A stretch of 38,272 nucleotides of DNA from an uncultured Pseudomonadota bacterium. GTDB taxonomy: Bacteria; Pseudomonadota; Gammaproteobacteria; Xanthomonadales; Wenzhouxiangellaceae. The stretch is from positions 1 to 38,272 of the forward strand of contig CAKZPB010000090.1 of assembly GCA_937138395.1 (NCBI GenBank). The letters run 5' to 3'. The notes under the pieces are model-generated. The model did no database searches and was not told the DNA's origin. It saw only the letters and a program-made list of their open reading frames with translations. Every line of letters begins with the position of its first letter. Position 1 is the stretch's first letter. Below are positions 260 to 30,494 of this stretch, piece by piece. The position numbers were made by a program, and so were the translations under genes.

Positions 260-511
260 CTGGTCATCGAATGACACGCTCAAGAAACCACGACTACCAG
301 GCTTGATTCCGGATTCGGCGATGCCGGCCCAGGAAGGATCGAGCGTTGCTGTCAATAAAAAATGTCGTACTCGACTTGCGAGCAATGTTCATGGTCGAGC
401 ATGTTGATGTCGAGTCGTCCGATTGCTCACCTGCTCAGGTTCTTATTCAATAACATGGCAAGCGATGCATTCAGCCACTGCATTTGCAAATCAGTAGCAA
501 TCGATTGATTA

Positions 512-529
512 ATCTGCGTAATCTGCGGT
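512..529 (-). repeat. Single end of the 9-nt-iteron element (half copy)
   Basis: On the minus strand this reads ACCGCAGATTACGCAGAT, two adjoining units of CGCAGATTA. It matches the outer ends of the three complete elements at 14597-14752, 16246-16429 and 29358-29508. The opposite end cannot be found to the left, so this is a solo or decayed copy. It lies 49 bp beyond the gdhA stop codon. Confidence 0.7.
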
Positions 530-578: not shown

Positions 579-1958
579 TCAGACCGTGCCCTGCGACAGC
601 ATGGCGTCGGCCAACTTCAGGAATCCAGCGACGTTTGCGCCTTTCCGGTAGTTCACGGAGGTACCGTCGGAATCACTACCATGTTCGACGCAGCGCTGAT
701 GAATGTCGGCCATGATGCCTCTCAGCTCTTTATCAACGCGTTCCATGCTCCAGTAACGATGCTCGGCATTCTGCGAGCGCTCGAGGCCCGACACGGCCAC
801 GCCACCGGCGTTGGCTGCTTTGCCCGGGGCATATAAAAGCTTCTTGCAATCCTGGAATTGCGCTACGGCTTCGGCCGTACTGGGCATATTGGCGCCCTCG
901 GCGACAATGCGGCAGCCGTTCTTGATCAGTGTCTTGGCATCGTTTCCGTCCAGTTCATTCTGGGTAGCACAGGGCAGGGCAATGTCGCATTCAGCAGACC
1001 AGGGATTCTTGCCTTTGCTGTACGCCCAGTCGATGGCGTCGGCGACTTCTTCGATCGTGCCGCGTTGTTCGGTCTTGATCTTGAAGACCTGCGCCAGATC
1101 GTCCTCTGAAAGGCCCTTGCTGGAATGCATGGTTCCGCCCGAGTCCGACAAGGTGATGACTTTGGCGCCGAGCTCGATGCATTTCTGGGCTGCGTGATTC
1201 GCCACGTTGCCAGATCCGGAAATTGCGACCTTGAGTCCTTCGATATCAGCATCGATCCGGTCCAGCATGTGGCGGACAAAATAGACCACGCCAAAGCCCG
1301 TTGCTTCAATTCGGAGTTCTGAACCGCCAAAGCTGACGCCTTTTCCGGTCAAGGCGCCGACGAATTCATGCGTCAGTCTTCGATACTGACCAAACAGATA
1401 GCCGATCTCACGCGCACCGACGCCGATATCGCCCGCCGGGATATCCCGATTCTGGCCAATGTAGTGCACCAATGAGTTCATCAGTGCCTGGCAAAAGCGC
1501 ATGACTTCCTTGTCGCTTCGGCCTTTCGGGTTGAAGTTGGCGCCGCCCTTGGCACCGCCGATCGGTAAACCGGTCAGCGCGTTCTTGAAACACTGTTCGA
1601 AGCCGAGAAATTTCAGAATTGACTCGTTCAGATCAGGATCGAACCGCAGTCCACCCTTGTAGGGGCCAATCGCATTATTGAACTGTGCGCGCCAGGCGCG
1701 GTTGACGTGCGTATTGCCGTCATCGTCGACCCAGGACACCCGAAACGATACGATCTGGTCCGGCTCGGTCATTCGTTCCAGCAGCATTTCTGACTGGTAG
1801 CGTTGGTTGTCGGCGACAAACGGGATGACATCTTCGGCTACTTCATGCACGGCCTGGTGAAATTCGTCCTGATGCGGATTACGCCGGATCAGACCCTGCA
1901 TAAAGCAGTCCAGATTATTCGTGTCGGCGCTTGAGAAGCAGTTTTGGCTTTCGTTCAT
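579..1958 (-). CDS. gdhA: NADP-type glutamate dehydrogenase
   Basis: This 459-residue enzyme of the hexameric (about 450 residue) class interconverts 2-oxoglutarate plus ammonium and glutamate in the cytosol. Substrate motifs GPYKGGLRF (residues 98-106) and LPIGGAKGG (131-139, catalytic Lys137) are intact. IPAGDIGVGAREIG follows, and the Rossmann stretch VAISGSGNVANHAAQK lies in the second half. NADP preference is inferred from overall similarity to the biosynthetic enzymes, not from a diagnostic residue. The start at 1958 is chosen because family homology begins there and GAGAA lies just upstream; the frame stays open further but overlaps divergent miaB. It is monocistronic, with a half iteron element 49 bp past its stop. 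Confidence 0.96.
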   Translation of the reverse strand: MNESQNCFSSADTNNLDCFMQGLIRRNPHQDEFHQAVHEVAEDVIPFVADNQRYQSEMLLERMTEPDQIVSFRVSWVDDDGNTHVNRAWRAQFNNAIGPYKGGLRFDPDLNESILKFLGFEQCFKNALTGLPIGGAKGGANFNPKGRSDKEVMRFCQALMNSLVHYIGQNRDIPAGDIGVGAREIGYLFGQYRRLTHEFVGALTGKGVSFGGSELRIEATGFGVVYFVRHMLDRIDADIEGLKVAISGSGNVANHAAQKCIELGAKVITLSDSGGTMHSSKGLSEDDLAQVFKIKTEQRGTIEEVADAIDWAYSKGKNPWSAECDIALPCATQNELDGNDAKTLIKNGCRIVAEGANMPSTAEAVAQFQDCKKLLYAPGKAANAGGVAVSGLERSQNAEHRYWSMERVDKELRGIMADIHQRCVEHGSDSDGTSVNYRKGANVAGFLKLADAMLSQGTV

Positions 1959-14596: not shown

Positions 14597-14752
14597 ACCG
14601 CAGATTGCGCCGATTTCGCAGATGTCAAAAAACCTCCAATCTGATGTTTGATTGAATCTGAACTATCAAACGGCTGTTTAATGTTCTTACGATCAATCTT
14701 TGTATCTTCAATGCCCTATCTTTTAATCTGCGGAATCGGTGTACTCTGCGGT
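14597..14752. repeat. 156-bp element with inverted 9-nt-iteron ends (copy A)
   Basis: The left end 14597-14623 and the reverse complement of the right end 14726-14752 share the pattern ACCGCAGAnTnCnCCGATTn followed by CGCAGAT. Each end is three 9-nt units related to CGCAGATTN. The interior is A/T-rich with no open reading frame. The right end lies 12 bp after the lpd stop codon. Together with flanks it fills most of the 292-bp lpd-yhdH gap; the remainder holds nothing recognisable. Confidence 0.8.
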
Positions 14753-14764
14753 ACCAAAATGTCG

Positions 14765-16192
14765 TCAGTTCGCCTTGTGTATTGCGCGTTTGTCGACCGA
14801 AAGGGCAGCCTCGTGGACGGCCTCGGACAGCGTTGGGTGTGCATGCACGATACGCGCAAGGTCTTCGGCCGATCCGTGAAATTCCATCGTTACCACGATT
14901 TCGCTGATCAGCTCCGACGCGTTGGCGCCGATAATCTGGCAGCCCAGTAGCTCATCGGTCTCGGCATCGGCCAGCATTTTGACCTGGCCGGATGCGTTAC
15001 CCATGGCCAGACCGCGGCCCGTGGCTGCAAATGGAAAGCTGCCTGCGTTGTACTCGATACCGGCTTGTTGGAGTTCGGCTTCATTTCTGCCGACCCAGGC
15101 AATTTCGGGGTCGGTATAGATGACCCATGGAATGGTTTCGAGGTTGATATGCCCGGCCTGTCCGGCAATGGTCTCGGCCACGGCAATGCCTTCCTCCGAT
15201 GCTTTATGGGCCAGCATGGGGCCGCGAACGAGGTCGCCAATTGCCCAGACACCCTTGGTACCGGTTCGGCAATGATCATCGATGTCAACCTGTCCGCGCT
15301 CGGTCAGCTTGACGCCGGAATCATCCGACAGCAGGTCATCGCTGGCTGCCCGTCGGCCGACCGCTACCAGCAGCTTGTCGAATACTTCGGTATGTTCGTC
15401 ATCGCCGCCTGAATAGTGCACGTGCACCTGGTCGTCCTTGATCTCGGCCCCGGACACTTTGCAGCTCATGCGGATATCAAGGCCCTGTTTCTTGAATTCG
15501 CGCTGTGCTACCCGGGCCATGTCGCGGTCGATGACCGGCAGGAATTCATCAGCTGCTTCCAGCAAAATGACCTCGCTGCCCAGACGACTCCAGACACTGC
15601 CCATCTCCAGCCCGATGACGCCGGCCCCAATCACGCCGAGCCGTTTCGGGACGTCTGGAATTTCAAGCGCACCGACATTATCAAGGATCATCTTGTTGTC
15701 GATCTCGACATTCGGAATCGTGAACGGAACCGAACCGGCGGCCAGGATGACATGTGCTCCGGATGCGGTGTACTTCTCACCCTCATGCGGGGACACTTCG
15801 ACCTGTCGGTCAGCAAATAATTTCCCGCGGCCGTTTACGAACGTAATCTTGTTGGCCTTGAACAGCTGGATCAAACCGGTGTTCAGCTGTTTGACGACGC
15901 CGCGCTTGCGCTCCAGCATTTTGCTGATATCCATGCTGATGTCGGAGACTTGAATGCCGTGGTCTTGATAGTCGTGCTGAATATGGTGAAAGTGCTTGGA
16001 AGAATCCAGCAATGCCTTGGACGGGATACACCCGACGTTCAGACAGGTGCCGCCAGGGGCTGGTTTGCCGTCCTCGCCCTGGCGGTCGTCGATCAACAGC
16101 GTGTTCAGATCAAGCTGAGCCGCTCGAATTGCCGCAGCGTACCCACCCGGGCCGCCTCCGATAACGATAAGATCAAATTGCTGTTCTGACAT
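14765..16192 (-). CDS. lpd: Dihydrolipoyl dehydrogenase (E3)
   Basis: This FAD-dependent E3 enzyme reoxidises dihydrolipoyl groups with NAD+. The 475-residue protein begins with the FAD motif GGGPGGYAAAIRAAQ. The redox-active disulfide is Cys50 and Cys55 in GGTCLNVGCIPSK. The NAD motif GVIGAGVIGLEMGS and the C-terminal catalytic HPTLSE histidine are present. It serves the 2-oxoglutarate dehydrogenase complex encoded upstream, and probably also the glycine cleavage system, since gcvP is nearby. It is separated from sucB by 258 bp containing iteron element B, which would lie in its mRNA leader. Confidence 0.97.
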   Translation of the reverse strand: MSEQQFDLIVIGGGPGGYAAAIRAAQLDLNTLLIDDRQGEDGKPAPGGTCLNVGCIPSKALLDSSKHFHHIQHDYQDHGIQVSDISMDISKMLERKRGVVKQLNTGLIQLFKANKITFVNGRGKLFADRQVEVSPHEGEKYTASGAHVILAAGSVPFTIPNVEIDNKMILDNVGALEIPDVPKRLGVIGAGVIGLEMGSVWSRLGSEVILLEAADEFLPVIDRDMARVAQREFKKQGLDIRMSCKVSGAEIKDDQVHVHYSGGDDEHTEVFDKLLVAVGRRAASDDLLSDDSGVKLTERGQVDIDDHCRTGTKGVWAIGDLVRGPMLAHKASEEGIAVAETIAGQAGHINLETIPWVIYTDPEIAWVGRNEAELQQAGIEYNAGSFPFAATGRGLAMGNASGQVKMLADAETDELLGCQIIGANASELISEIVVTMEFHGSAEDLARIVHAHPTLSEAVHEAALSVDKRAIHKAN

Positions 16193-16245: not shown

Positions 16246-16429
16246 ACCGCAGATTTCGCCGATTACGCAGAGTTGAAATGCTGCGAACGGATTTCGGATC
16301 ACATGATGCTAGTTTTGCTTAACGATTATTAGATAGCGTTTTCAGGCTTTAAAGCCAGGATCACGCAAAACGTCGTTGACTTTATCGCTGTCCTTTTTCA
16401 AATCTGCGTATATCTGCGTAATCTGCGGT
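16246..16429. repeat. 184-bp element with inverted 9-nt-iteron ends (copy B), inside suc operon
   Basis: The left end 16246-16272 starts ACCGCAGATTTCGCCGATTA. The right end 16402-16429 is, on the minus strand, ACCGCAGATTACGCAGATAT followed by ACGCAGAT. The right end starts 21 bp after the sucB stop and the left end is 53 bp before the lpd ATG. The interior has no open reading frame. As RNA, the two ends could pair into a long imperfect stem. Confidence 0.8.
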
Positions 16430-16450: not shown

Positions 16451-17650
16451 TCAGAGCCCAAGCAGCATGCGGGCCGGGTCTTCGAGCGATTCCTTGACGG
16501 CAACCAGGAACTGGACCGCATCCTTGCCGTCGATGATGCGATGGTCATAGGACAGCGCGATGTACATCATCGGCCGAACGACAATATCGCCATTTACAAC
16601 CACGGGGCGTTCCTTGATGGTATGCATGCCCAGAATGGCGCTTTGCGGCGGGTTCAACAAGGGTGTCGACAACAATGAGCCGAATACACCGCCGTTGGTA
16701 ATTGAAAACGTGCCGCCCTGAAGGTCTTCAAGCTGAATCTTTCCAGCCCGTGCCTGCTCGGCATACTCCATGATCTGGGTTTCGATCTGGGCCAGGTTCA
16801 TATGGCCGGCGTTGCGCAGGATCGGCACCATCAGGCCACGGTCCGTCGAAACGGCAATGCCGATATCCTGATAGCCGTGATAGATGATTTCTTCGCCATC
16901 GACGGAAGCATTGACCACCGGATGCTTATCCAGCGCTTCGCAACAGGCCTTGACAAAAAATGACATGAAGCCCAGCTTGACGCCGTGTGCTTTCTGGAAA
17001 TCGTCCTTGTAGCGGGCACGAAGATCCATTACCGCTTTCAGATCGACTTCGTTGAATGAGGTCAGAATGGCTGCCGTGTTCTGTGCTTCTTTCATGCGCT
17101 CGGCAATGCGTTGGCGCAGGCGGGATAGCTTGACCCGCTCTTCGGGCCGTGCACCGCCTCCACTCATGTGCTTGAGCACATCGCCCTTGGTGATCCGACC
17201 GGCGCGCCCGGTGCCCTCGAGCGAGGCCGGATCGATCTGATTTTCAGTCACCATCTTGCGCACGGATGGGGCCAGCTTGTCGGTATCCCCGGTGCCGGGT
17301 GTCTCTTCGGCCGCGTCATTGCTTTCTGCTGCCTGTGGTTGAGATGCTTCCGATGACTTCGTCGTCTTCGCATCATCATCCGGCTGTTCAGCGGGTTCGT
17401 CTTGTTCGACTTCGCCTTCCTGGACGGCGCCCAGTAGCTGATCGGCAGTCACCGTTTCTCCTTCTTCGGCGCTGATGCTTTCCAGGGTACCGTCGACCGG
17501 CGATGGCACCTCCAATACGACCTTGTCGGTTTCCAGGTCTACCAGGTTTTCATCGCGCCGGATGCTGTCACCGGGTTTCTTGTGCCATTTGGCGACAATG
17601 GCGTCGGAAACCGATTCGGGCAGCGTGGGAACCTTGACTTCAGTACTCAT
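16451..17650 (-). CDS. sucB: 2-oxoglutarate dehydrogenase E2, dihydrolipoyl succinyltransferase
   Basis: This is the core acyltransferase of the 2-oxoglutarate dehydrogenase complex. The 399-residue protein has one N-terminal lipoyl domain with lipoyl-lysine Lys43 in [10 protein letters not shown]. An acidic Ala/Glu/Asp-rich linker spans about residues 80-125, and a peripheral-subunit-binding domain with SVRKMVTEN and [12 protein letters not shown] spans about 128-165. The C-terminal catalytic domain holds the active histidine in [18 protein letters not shown] lies seven bases before the ATG. It follows sucA after 43 bp. sucCD, often next in this operon, are absent; element B and lpd come instead. 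Confidence 0.97.
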
Positions 17651-27931: not shown

Positions 27932-29347
27932 ATGACTGAAGAAACCCATTCAACTGCGACGGAGTCGACCAAAGCCGTATTCAAAATGCCGCACACGCTG
28001 GTGTTGATGTTTGCCCTGATGATTCTGGCGTTGGTCATGACCTGGGTTTTACCGGCCGGCGAGTTTCAAACCGAAGTCAACGAAGCGGGTCGTGAGGTGG
28101 TGATCGCCAATACCTATGCGGTGATCGAGGACCATCCGAAGATGTCGCCGGTGTCGTTGTTTACGGCCGTGCCGCGCGCGTTGGGTCAGGCGCAGGACAT
28201 TATCTTCTTCGTATTGCTGATCGGTGGTGCGCTGGCCGTCATTCGTGACACCGGCGCAATTGACGCGCTGCTCGGGCGCGTAATCGTGCGCTTTGGATCG
28301 ATGCCGGGACTGCTGATCTTTATCGGTATTTTCATGTTTGCGTTTGGCGCGGCCACGATCGGCATGGCGGTCGAATACATACCGCTGGCCGGCGTGTTGA
28401 TAGCACTCTGTGTGGCGATGCGGATGGATACCATGACCGCCATCGGCATGATTGTGGTTGGTTATGGCATCGGCTATGGCGCGGCACTGACCAATCCGTT
28501 TACGCTCGTCATTGCTCAGAACGTAGCCGAGCTTCAGCCCATTTCGGGCTGGGAATATCGTGTGCTCTGGTATCTGCCGTTTGTGCTCATTGGCGTTCAT
28601 CACGTCTGGAGCTATGCCAAAAAAGTGCAGGCCGACCCGACGTGCAGCCTGGTCTACGGCGTGGATGAAGCGCAACCTCCGGAGCACGTTGAACCACCCT
28701 CCATGACGGCCACCCACTTGCTGGTGCTGATCAGCGCGTTTGCGTCGCTGTTGATTCTGGTATGGGGCATCACCCAGCAGGGTTGGTACCTGACGGAACT
28801 CAGTGCTTTATTTGTTGCGCTGGCCATTCTCGTTGGTTTGATTGCCCGGCTCAAGTTCGACCGCGTGGCCATTGTTTTCAGCAAGGGGGCCGCCGAACTG
28901 GCCGGCACGGCGCTGTTGATCGGTTTTGCGCGCGCCATCTCGCTGCTGCTCGAGGACGGCATGGTGCTGCACACCATTGTCAATGCCATGGCTACACCGC
29001 TGCAGGGACTGCCCGCTCAGGTGGCTGCAGTCGGCATGCTGGGTATCCAGAGCATCATGAATATCTTCGTCGCATCGGGCAGCGGCCAGGCGTACCTGAC
29101 CATGCCGCTGATGGCCCCGATCGGTGACATCCTGGGTATCGAACGTCAGGTCACGGTCCTGGCATTTTTATATGGCGATGGCTTCATGAACATGATCGTG
29201 CCGACCAACGCCGTCCTGATGGGCATCATCGGCCTGGCCGGTATTCCCTATACGCGCTGGTTCCGGTTTATCTTTCCGCTGATCATCAAGCTGCTGATTG
29301 CAGGATCGATTGCGCTGATCATCGCGGTTCAGATCGGGTACAGCTAA
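27932..29347 (+). CDS. YfcC-family membrane transporter (DcuC/AbgT-like superfamily)
   Basis: This 471-residue integral-membrane protein has about twelve hydrophobic segments. It begins with HTLVLMFALMILALVMTWVLPAGEF, the characteristic start of the YfcC family, and contains GYGIGYGAALTNPFTLVIAQ and NIFVASGSGQAYLTMPLMAPI. Relatives are annotated as basic amino-acid, dipeptide or C4-dicarboxylate carriers; the substrate cannot be decided here. It stands alone, divergent from mfd and convergent with prs. An AGG lies nine bases before the ATG. Iteron element C begins 10 bp after its stop. Confidence 0.87.
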   Translation: MTEETHSTATESTKAVFKMPHTLVLMFALMILALVMTWVLPAGEFQTEVNEAGREVVIANTYAVIEDHPKMSPVSLFTAVPRALGQAQDIIFFVLLIGGALAVIRDTGAIDALLGRVIVRFGSMPGLLIFIGIFMFAFGAATIGMAVEYIPLAGVLIALCVAMRMDTMTAIGMIVVGYGIGYGAALTNPFTLVIAQNVAELQPISGWEYRVLWYLPFVLIGVHHVWSYAKKVQADPTCSLVYGVDEAQPPEHVEPPSMTATHLLVLISAFASLLILVWGITQQGWYLTELSALFVALAILVGLIARLKFDRVAIVFSKGAAELAGTALLIGFARAISLLLEDGMVLHTIVNAMATPLQGLPAQVAAVGMLGIQSIMNIFVASGSGQAYLTMPLMAPIGDILGIERQVTVLAFLYGDGFMNMIVPTNAVLMGIIGLAGIPYTRWFRFIFPLIIKLLIAGSIALIIAVQIGYS

Positions 29348-29357
29348 CCCAATTGAA

Positions 29358-29508
29358 ATCGCAGATTGCGCGGATTTCGCAGATAAAAAGCAAATGGTTC
29401 CCTGGTAGCAATGACCAAGTTTGTTTTATTGCAAGGGGAATATTGGTCGATCCTAAGTAACGACTTGTGTTTGTTTTTTAATCTTCGTACATCTGCGTGA
29501 TCTGCGGC
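29358..29508. repeat. 151-bp element with inverted 9-nt-iteron ends (copy C)
   Basis: The left end 29358-29384 reads ATCGCAGATTGCGCGGATTT followed by CGCAGAT. The right end 29481-29508 is, on the minus strand, GCCGCAGATCACGCAGATGT followed by ACGAAGAT. It fills the gap between the convergent yfcC-like gene (ends 29347) and prs (ends 29541). The ends could pair as a terminator-like stem in both transcripts, and a T-run lies at about 29471-29479. Confidence 0.8.
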
Positions 29509-29540: not shown

Positions 29541-30494
29541 TTAATCCACGTAAAGCGAACTGACCGATTCGCCTTCAGCCATGCGGCGAATGGTTTCGGC
29601 CAGCATTTGCGCGACCGATAATTGGCGAACGCGACCGCATTCCAACGCTTCCGGTTTGAGCGGAATGGTGTCCGTGCAGACGATTTCATCCAGCTCCGAA
29701 CTTGCAATATTCTTGATCGCCGGGCCCGACAGAACCGGATGCACGCAGTAGGCCACAACGCGGATTGCACCGGCTTCCTTGAGTGCGGCCGCGGCCGAAC
29801 ACAGGGTGCCTGCAGTGTCGATCATGTCGTCGATCAGAACACAGATCTTGCCGTCGACATCACCGATCAGGTTCATGACCGTGGATTCGTTCGCTCTGGG
29901 TCGGCGCTTGTCGATGATGGCCAGTTCGGTATCGAGTCGACGGGCAATGGCCCGAGCCCTGGCCACACCGCCGACATCCGGCGAGACCACGATCATTTCG
30001 TTGCCGCCGTAATGCTTCCAGATATCGGCCAGCGTCAGCGGGGAGGCGTATACGTTGTCGACCGGAATATCGAAAAAACCCTGAATCTGATCGGAATGCA
30101 GATCGACCGTTACAACCCGATCCGTGCCAACAGTACCAATCATCTTGGCTGCGACCTTGGCCGTGATCGGCACCCGGGCCGACCGCGGTCGACGGTCCTG
30201 CCGCGCATAGCCGAAATAGGGAATGACAGCCGTTACGCGTGTTGCCGAGGCCCGTTTCAGGGCATCAACCATGACCAGCAATTCCATGGTGTTTTCGGCA
30301 ACCGGCTGACAGGTGGGCTGAATGATGAAAATGTCGCGCCCGCGAACGTTTTCGTCAATTTCAACCATGACTTCGCCGTCACTGAAACGCCCCACGTTGG
30401 CCTTGCCCATGGGAACGCCGAGATGACCGGCGATGGCGTGCGCCAATTCAGGATTGGCATTGCCGGAAAAAATCATCAGCGATGGTGTGCTCAC
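29541..30494 (-). CDS. prs: Ribose-phosphate pyrophosphokinase (PRPP synthetase)
   Basis: This enzyme makes PRPP from ribose-5-phosphate and ATP for nucleotide, His and Trp synthesis. The 317-residue protein has ATP/metal motif [11 protein letters not shown] (131-141), the flexible-loop segment [15 protein letters not shown] and the PRPP-binding loop [11 protein letters not shown] (221-231). The start codon is GTG at 30494, giving [18 protein letters not shown], which matches the family N-terminus. It lies 66 bp downstream of tRNA-Gln on the same strand, so the tRNA and prs may share a transcript. rplY and pth, often downstream, are absent. Confidence 0.97.

Follow-up and report, generated by a model that had tools for sequence, protein, structure and literature searches.

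Why do the repeat elements of this locus lie directly behind stop codons? The window, meaning the whole 38,272-nt stretch of DNA that was analyzed, contains three complete elements (copies A, B, and C) and one half copy. The initial annotation measured stop-to-element distances of 12 bp (lpd), 21 bp (sucB), 10 bp (yfcC-like), 32 bp (prs), and 49 bp (gdhA), all of which proved exact. The elements and their neighboring genes are as follows.

511..529, no strand: half copy consisting of a single two-iteron right arm, separated from the gdhA stop by 49 nt
579..1958, minus strand: gdhA, NADP-specific glutamate dehydrogenase (NCBIfam NF006929, above cut-off)
14597..14624, no strand: copy A left arm, three iterons CGCAGATT / CGCCGATT / CGCAGATG
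14625..14724, no strand: copy A interior, unique to copy A, with no interior common to other copies
14725..14752, no strand: copy A right arm (iterons inverted), separated from the lpd stop codon by 12 nt
14753..14764, no strand: 12-nt spacer between copy A and the lpd stop, the coordinates of the original observation
14765..16192, minus strand: lpd, dihydrolipoyl dehydrogenase (NCBIfam TIGR01350, 516.6 bits, cut-off 408.8), stop codon at 14765-14767
16246..16273, no strand: copy B left arm
16274..16400, no strand: copy B interior
16401..16429, no strand: copy B right arm, separated from the sucB stop by 21 nt
16451..17650, minus strand: sucB (NCBIfam TIGR01347, above cut-off)
27932..29347, plus strand: yfcC-like transporter gene (best match NF008611 [YfcC], 327.9 bits, below the cut-off of 500)
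29358..29385, no strand: copy C left arm, separated from the yfcC-like stop by 10 nt
29386..29479, no strand: copy C interior
29480..29508, no strand: copy C right arm, separated from the prs stop by 32 nt, in a convergent gap
29541..30476, minus strand: prs, ribose-phosphate diphosphokinase (NCBIfam NF003428, above cut-off)

In the same protein profile search of the window, sucA was also above its NCBIfam cut-off. A left partner for the half copy was looked for and not found. At the Rfam gathering threshold, tRNA was the sole match in the window, and the elements matched no known Rfam family. An exact 55-nt direct repeat at the contig start (1-55 and 142-196) is possibly an assembly-end artifact.

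Each element is an inverted pair of arms around a filler, and each arm carries, from the outside in, up to three 8-bp iterons of the CGCAGATT type. Read in that direction, an arm follows the pattern (A)CCGCAGATT-N-CGCAGATT-N(N)-CGCAGATT, subject to some variation, and its partner mirrors it. Spacing between iterons 1 and 2 was 9 nt in all 142 filtered arms (sets of 42, 64, and 36 arms). Iterons 2 and 3 were 10 nt apart in 64 of 64 arms of the relative G018, 9 or 10 nt apart in 32 arms of the window genome, and 9, 10, or once 11 nt apart in 36 arms of a second relative, G015. The linker letters, compared arm against arm, matched at about the rate expected by chance (9/21 versus 10.1, 10/32 versus 11.8, and 11/18 versus 7.9; 4/10 versus 3.6 in G015 once tandem arrays were collapsed), and the outer flanks of the two arms had no covariation above expectation. 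A perfect stem was therefore rejected as the selected object. Variants of the iterons themselves were mirrored between arms slightly more often than in shuffled pairs, in the window genome only (9 versus 5.0, P = 0.039), which leaves room for selection on pairing; the corresponding values were 2 versus 0.6 in G018 (P = 0.10) and 1 versus 1.3 in G015. We infer that rigid spacing alongside freely varying linkers is better explained by a protein that recognizes each 8-mer than by selection for a perfect stem.

The interiors were unrelated from copy to copy, except in local tandem duplicates (22, 25, and 17 interiors compared). Outside the G015 tandem arrays, only five interior matches were seen, all 11 to 17 nt long and chance-like, and the longest interiors reached 415 nt. 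Further inverted repeats occurred within 3 of 20 interiors in one set (a GTAG-like repeat pair, a terminator, and a 10-bp repeat) and in 0 of 21 in the other. A GTAG-type palindromic repeat pair, so labeled by reading the sequence, lies inside the interior of a CGCAGATT element (L059, 7453-7525), and another CGCAGATT pair (L092, 6778-7006) contains an apparent decayed arm of a CCACAGATG-type family. Elsewhere, two near-identical single arms, set in the opposite polarity and 2.5 kb apart (L074, 6603-6619 and 9097-9113), flank an HMG-CoA reductase-like gene and a umuD/lexA-like gene.

The elements are numerous in the window genome and patchy among its relatives. The 17-letter right end, allowing up to 3 mismatches, occurred 80 times in the 2.84-Mb window genome, compared to 2 occurrences of a reversed control. 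The 28 stretches studied (the window plus 27 fetched), which contain every hit with up to 2 mismatches and leave aside eight hits with 3 mismatches only, held 24 inverted pairs and 12 single ends. At up to 1 mismatch, the end pattern was present in 13 of 31 genomes (the organism's own plus 30 relatives), in the sparsest case as a single end; copy number of ends among related genomes ranged from 0 to 63, with the maximum in G018 and with several genomes of the same family having none. Fetched stretches yielded 32 pairs in G018 and 18 in G015; one 2-mismatch end of G018 (C17:875502) and three such ends of G015 lie outside them. Some G015 pairs formed tandem arrays of 3 or 4 similar copies (L096, 6152-6754; L097, 6164-7220; L099, 6440-7534), and flanking DNA must have been duplicated with them, because the start-to-start distances were 173, 344-369, and 322-335 nt.

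Beyond these relatives, at least 119 stretches of named genomes carry the three-iteron motif. They represent many phyla of bacteria and a Methanoperedens archaeon, and 79 viral-contig stretches carry the motif as well. Among the trans-phylum matches listed, 149 ends had a partner facing inward only in 64 cases, outward only in 9, and on both sides in 20, and 56 had none. G018 also carries several more inverted iteron families (ACGGAA, GCGCAAAGG, TTGGCTGG, CAAGCACC, and CGCAGAGA), in stretches L090, L093, L108, L110, L113, L115, L116, and L123. A literature text search, with most subscription papers outside its scope, found no paper containing any of six 15- to 17-letter forms of the motif, and a text search with strings of six other iterons likewise found none.

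To place elements relative to genes, coding regions were called with a purpose-built hexamer model, in which stops are exact and starts approximate, and observed positions were compared with 5,000 runs in which elements were placed at random within the gaps of those stretches. Judged inside the window alone, where about 25% of gap bases are divergent, all four elements would miss such gaps by chance with a probability of about 0.3, and the absence of elements from divergent gaps is weak evidence; the divergent gaps at 1958/2112, 27707/27932, and 36439/36556 are free of elements. Across the window genome, 0 of 23 element gaps were divergent, compared to a mean of 5.8 by random placement (P = 0.0008), and the element edge was within 30 nt of a stop in 20 of 23 gaps (mean 4.3 by random placement, with the observed count reached in 0 of 5,000 runs). 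In G018, 3 of 30 gaps were divergent (mean 7.6, P = 0.033) and 25 of 30 elements lay within 30 nt of a stop (mean 6.1); in G015 the values were 0 of 11 (mean 2.3, P = 0.073) and 8 of 11 (mean 1.9). Elements in tandem gaps lay closer to the stop upstream than to the following start in 11 of 13 cases in the window genome, 19 of 21 in G018, and 5 of 7 in G015. These counts exclude 1 of 24 window-genome pairs and 2 of 32 G018 pairs in which a called gene overlaps the element, and all three have a called stop codon inside the element. The window genome's 12 single ends comprised 7 tandem, 2 convergent, 1 divergent, and 1 intragenic, with the remaining 1 (the half copy) at the contig edge.

The proposal that elements sit just past stop codons and avoid divergent gaps thus extends from four cases to the whole genome. 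Given the random-placement results, the caution that four cases might reflect chance can be dropped for the window genome and the two relatives, and an equal spread over divergent, tandem, and convergent gaps is not what was found. The initial annotation offered either a 3'-UTR role or an insertion preference for gene ends; the data favor neither over the other. The bias is not tied to the motif everywhere. Among the trans-phylum matches listed (119 stretches), crude gene calls put 15 in divergent, 57 in tandem, and 14 in convergent gaps, 13 within genes, and 31 at edges, against gap bases that were 24% divergent, 62% tandem, and 14% convergent. Tandem copies in this set were nearer the stop in 31 of 57 cases, and across phyla the gene-end bias is weak or absent by these crude calls.

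Once transcribed, the elements could fold. As RNA, copies A, B, and C form a hairpin closed by both arms (z of -4.7, -4.2, and -4.4), and four short copies reached z of -7.5 to -11.2; one-armed pieces of copies A and C folded no better than shuffles (z of -0.2 and -0.9). In the window genome, TTTT occurred within 20 nt outside 17 of 48 arms, compared to 10 of 142 control 3' flanks (P = 7e-6), and positions 9 to 12 nt outside the arms were T rich. None of the 64 arm flanks in G018 had TTTT. Tandem gaps of G018 that hold a pair had fewer ordinary terminator-like hairpins (6 of 41) than those without a pair (25 of 70, P = 0.018), and the same comparison in convergent gaps (2 of 9 versus 4 of 10) was not significant. 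Within interiors, terminator-like structures were counted in 7 of 20 in the window genome (4 in shuffled sequence) and 9 of 21 in G018 (2 in shuffled sequence), with one clear terminator (L069). This is suggestive, though short of decisive, for interiors being a native terminator region bracketed by two arms, and that reading was set aside.

A role in termination or at mRNA ends is predicted from these features as a possible one. The sucB and lpd genes usually form one operon, and copy B sits between them; a readthrough transcript from sucB would meet the copy B hairpin followed by a run of six U. The hairpins, the T-tracts of the window genome, and the scarcity of ordinary terminator-like hairpins in pair-holding tandem gaps of G018 speak for a transcript-end role; the lack of T-tracts in G018, the large loops, and the site of copy B speak against a simple terminator.

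Comparison of orthologous gaps provided a second view of gene ends. Seven of the 31 stretches of G018, each selected for the element it contains, were queried against the relative G014, and 62 gaps could be mapped from six of them (unmapped pair-bearing gaps were three in L113 and two in L116; two L084 elements whose ends overlap called genes are counted). G014 had an inverted pair in 10 of 14 gaps where G018 has a pair, compared to 1 of 48 gaps where G018 has none (Fisher P = 1e-7). The difference persisted when only G014 gaps of at least 60 nt were considered (10/12 versus 1/29) and when only nondivergent G018 gaps of at least 100 nt were considered (10/13 versus 0/7, P = 0.003). In nine of the ten shared slots, the arms of G018 and G014 had no 8-letter word in common. 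By eye, eight of the ten differ in iteron family, one is the same, and one is unclear and not visibly built of iterons; among the eight, one swap is between the related families CGCAGATT and ACACAGATGA. Of the CGCAGATT elements that could be mapped to G014, 5 of 9 face a pair.

A similar pattern was seen in other comparisons. In species of the same genus as the window organism, the copy A and copy B gaps both hold inverted pairs of related CCACAGATT- or CCGCAGATGA-like iterons, and the copy B gap also holds unrelated GGTTTTA-like inverted pairs. Using an inverted-repeat threshold, pairs were detected at element sites in 4 of the 6 gaps mapped in relatives and at other sites in 0 of 11, a comparison that covers copies A and B, as the copy C gap could not be mapped. 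For L112 across ten relatives of G018, 10 of the 24 gaps mapped at pair sites contained a pair, compared to 1 of 44 elsewhere. Families observed in slots include CGCAGATT, ACACAGATGA, ACGGAA, GTGTGAAG, AAATAGT, GGTTTCA, TTGGCTGG, and others. Shared slots are equally compatible with a slot that has a function and with a landing site that is permissive or targeted. We tentatively consider, while holding it somewhat doubtful, that certain gene ends are long-lived slots in which the iteron family is swapped wholesale, with both arms and the interior changing together, so that selection, or the machinery of insertion, would act on position and architecture rather than on sequence.

Individual sites also vary among relatives. 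Element 2 of L112 corresponds to an empty site, with no pair in 7 of 7 mapped relatives, and element 2 of L084 to an empty site with gaps of 21 to 32 nt in 3 of 3 relatives; these empty-site relatives are too diverged for an insertion junction or target-site duplication to be read. Element 1 of L084 has decayed in place and is damaged or halved in G045, G010, and G039. Three elements common to G018 and G045 have similar ends, with 209 of 240 positions identical (87%), compared to 683 of 1,096 four-fold sites (62%), and interiors that do not align beyond chance. Purifying selection on the ends was set aside as an explanation for this difference, because an end pattern had been used to find the copies and one decayed ortholog is present.

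A search for a mobilizing gene gave little. The Y1_Tnp profile, used to detect RAYT transposases, had no match in the element-rich genomes G000 and G018 (22 of 31 genomes were positive), and the element-rich G002 and G015 had one weak match each. An all-against-all comparison of proteins beside the repeats in the 119 trans-phylum stretches listed revealed no recurring protein beyond apparent common families; the largest groups spanned 10, 7, and 6 stretches and appeared by eye to be an ABC-type ATPase and other common families. A linked transposase or dedicated protein was rejected on this basis. Matches occurred in four plasmid and 23 phage records, none covering 80% of the arm, and the idea that these sequences delimit some larger annotated element of a plasmid or phage was rejected.

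Several known repeat systems share parts of this layout. MITEs are short, have terminal inverted repeats and no obvious gene, and are patchy among relatives, as are the elements here; unlike MITEs, the elements have no interior common to their copies (outside G015 tandem arrays), and no parent transposon was found in a transposase search covering the Y1_Tnp profile and the neighbor-protein scan. Intrinsic terminators and the uptake-sequence pairs at gene ends resemble the elements in being inverted repeats behind a stop, with a T-tract in the window genome, and differ from them in that the elements have large loops, sequence-specific iterons, and, in G018, no T-tract. Rehm et al. 2015 (PMC4692102) describe G-rich heptamer arrays in Xanthomonas, often as opposed pairs, that lie most often within 50 nt of a stop on the coding strand and rarely between divergent genes, with a function that the authors describe as still to be found. 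Inverted pairs close behind a stop and rare in divergent gaps are also what was found here. However, GGGAATC or GGGGA(C/T)T repeats of Xanthomonas and Nostoc are described as head-to-tail heptamers of 2 to 26 units with G-tracts and quadruplex folding, whereas these elements have up to three 8-mers at 9- or 10-nt spacing. GGG or CCC was found in 4 of 48 element ends in the window genome and 1 of 64 in G018, and because there is hardly any G-tract, a quadruplex cannot explain the element layout.

The architecture also resembles that of REPs, and spread as a REPIN by a RAYT transposase was weighed. REPINs are defined as inverted doublets by Bertels and Rainey 2011 (PMC3116915), and Di Nocera et al. 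2013 (PMC3733652) describe REPs that lie downstream of coding regions, chiefly in gaps of the uni- and convergent types, and tail-tail REP dimers with variable spacers. The elements share the inverted doublet, the variable spacer, the extragenic position in such gaps, and foldable hairpins. They differ in having no palindrome within the arm (six single arms folded as DNA had z of -1.8 to +0.8), no GTAG tag (GTAG or CTAC in 1 of 48 ends in the window genome and 0 of 64 in G018), and no RAYT match in two element-rich genomes. CGTC or GACG was present in 3 of 48 and 16 of 64 ends, respectively, and reads as GACGCAG across the linker rather than as a terminal tag. With no Y1_Tnp match in G000 or G018, we set RAYT-driven spread aside as extremely improbable.

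Two other explanations for the position bias were weighed. The elements might insert at random, with hits in promoters and genes lost and the remainder surviving behind stop codons. Depletion from divergent gaps is what such loss would leave, and the same bias is reported for REPs (PMC3733652) and GGGAATC repeats (PMC4692102). The DNA left around the elements fits survival alone less well. Median outer flanks in the window genome were 78 nt in tandem and 31.5 nt in convergent gaps, compared to about 263 and 303 nt for insertion proportional to gap length; since unweighted medians of ordinary gaps were 41 and 52 nt, this argument rests on the weighting. Tandem copies in G018 likewise leave only 21 to 77 nt before the next start. 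We regard pure survival bias as quite unlikely. Alternatively, the pair may be a bidirectional terminator or stabilizing 3' stem selected at particular gene ends, with its family replaceable. Orthologous slots that keep a pair while the family changes, in G014, at L112, and in the window genus, are what this would produce, as are the T-tracts outside window-genome arms, the scarcity of ordinary terminator-like hairpins in pair-holding tandem gaps of G018, and the conserved ends shared by G018 and G045. Other observations weigh against it: permissive gaps that are hit repeatedly would also yield shared slots, 4 of 14 slots were not kept, G018 has no T-tract, the way in which copies were found biases the end conservation, linker letters show no covariation between arms, and copy B separates sucB from lpd. 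We consider a selected 3' element unlikely.

The explanation we prefer, and to which we give about an even chance, is that these are REPIN-like mobile inverted pairs without a RAYT, which insert at the 3' ends of genes or persist there and become part of the transcript. Sites empty in relatives and the short outer flanks argue for an insertion preference. Against mobility, copies of a normal mobile element have a common interior and copies of these elements do not; the three divergent copies in G018, the neighbor-protein scan that found no mobilizing gene, and the weak Y1_Tnp matches in G002 and G015 also weigh against a RAYT-less mobile pair. As we envisage it, the family would consist of small, probably mobile, nonautonomous elements. 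A protein would recognize the iterons one by one, because their spacing is rigid while linker letters vary freely and independently in each arm, and the same protein, rather than the RAYT transposase of REPs, would spread the arms. Insertions behind a stop would be tolerated, and perhaps favored by the enzyme, while those in shared promoter gaps would be removed. At a gene end the hairpin would join the 3' region of the mRNA and might there terminate transcription or shield the message upstream of it. Several iteron families would use the same gene-end slots, and a slot could therefore outlive its sequence.

The position bias behind stop codons is already known for REP and GGGAATC repeats. As far as the literature searches show, what is new is an iteron pair that lacks both a RAYT and G-tracts, together with the swapping of families in shared slots.

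Repeats behind stop codons have been described family by family, with RAYT and REP, quadruplex heptamers, and uptake sequences each treated separately. Here, the same layout occurs with G-tract-poor iterons, no detectable RAYT, and different families at orthologous gene ends. Similarly built elements of different sequence at the same gene ends hint at reusable slots rather than one special sequence. This points to a common cause behind several repeat families and allows a test of whether the 3' ends of genes serve as insertion targets or require a hairpin. If the slots are real, bacteria would have a general, sequence-free 3'-end device or landing site.
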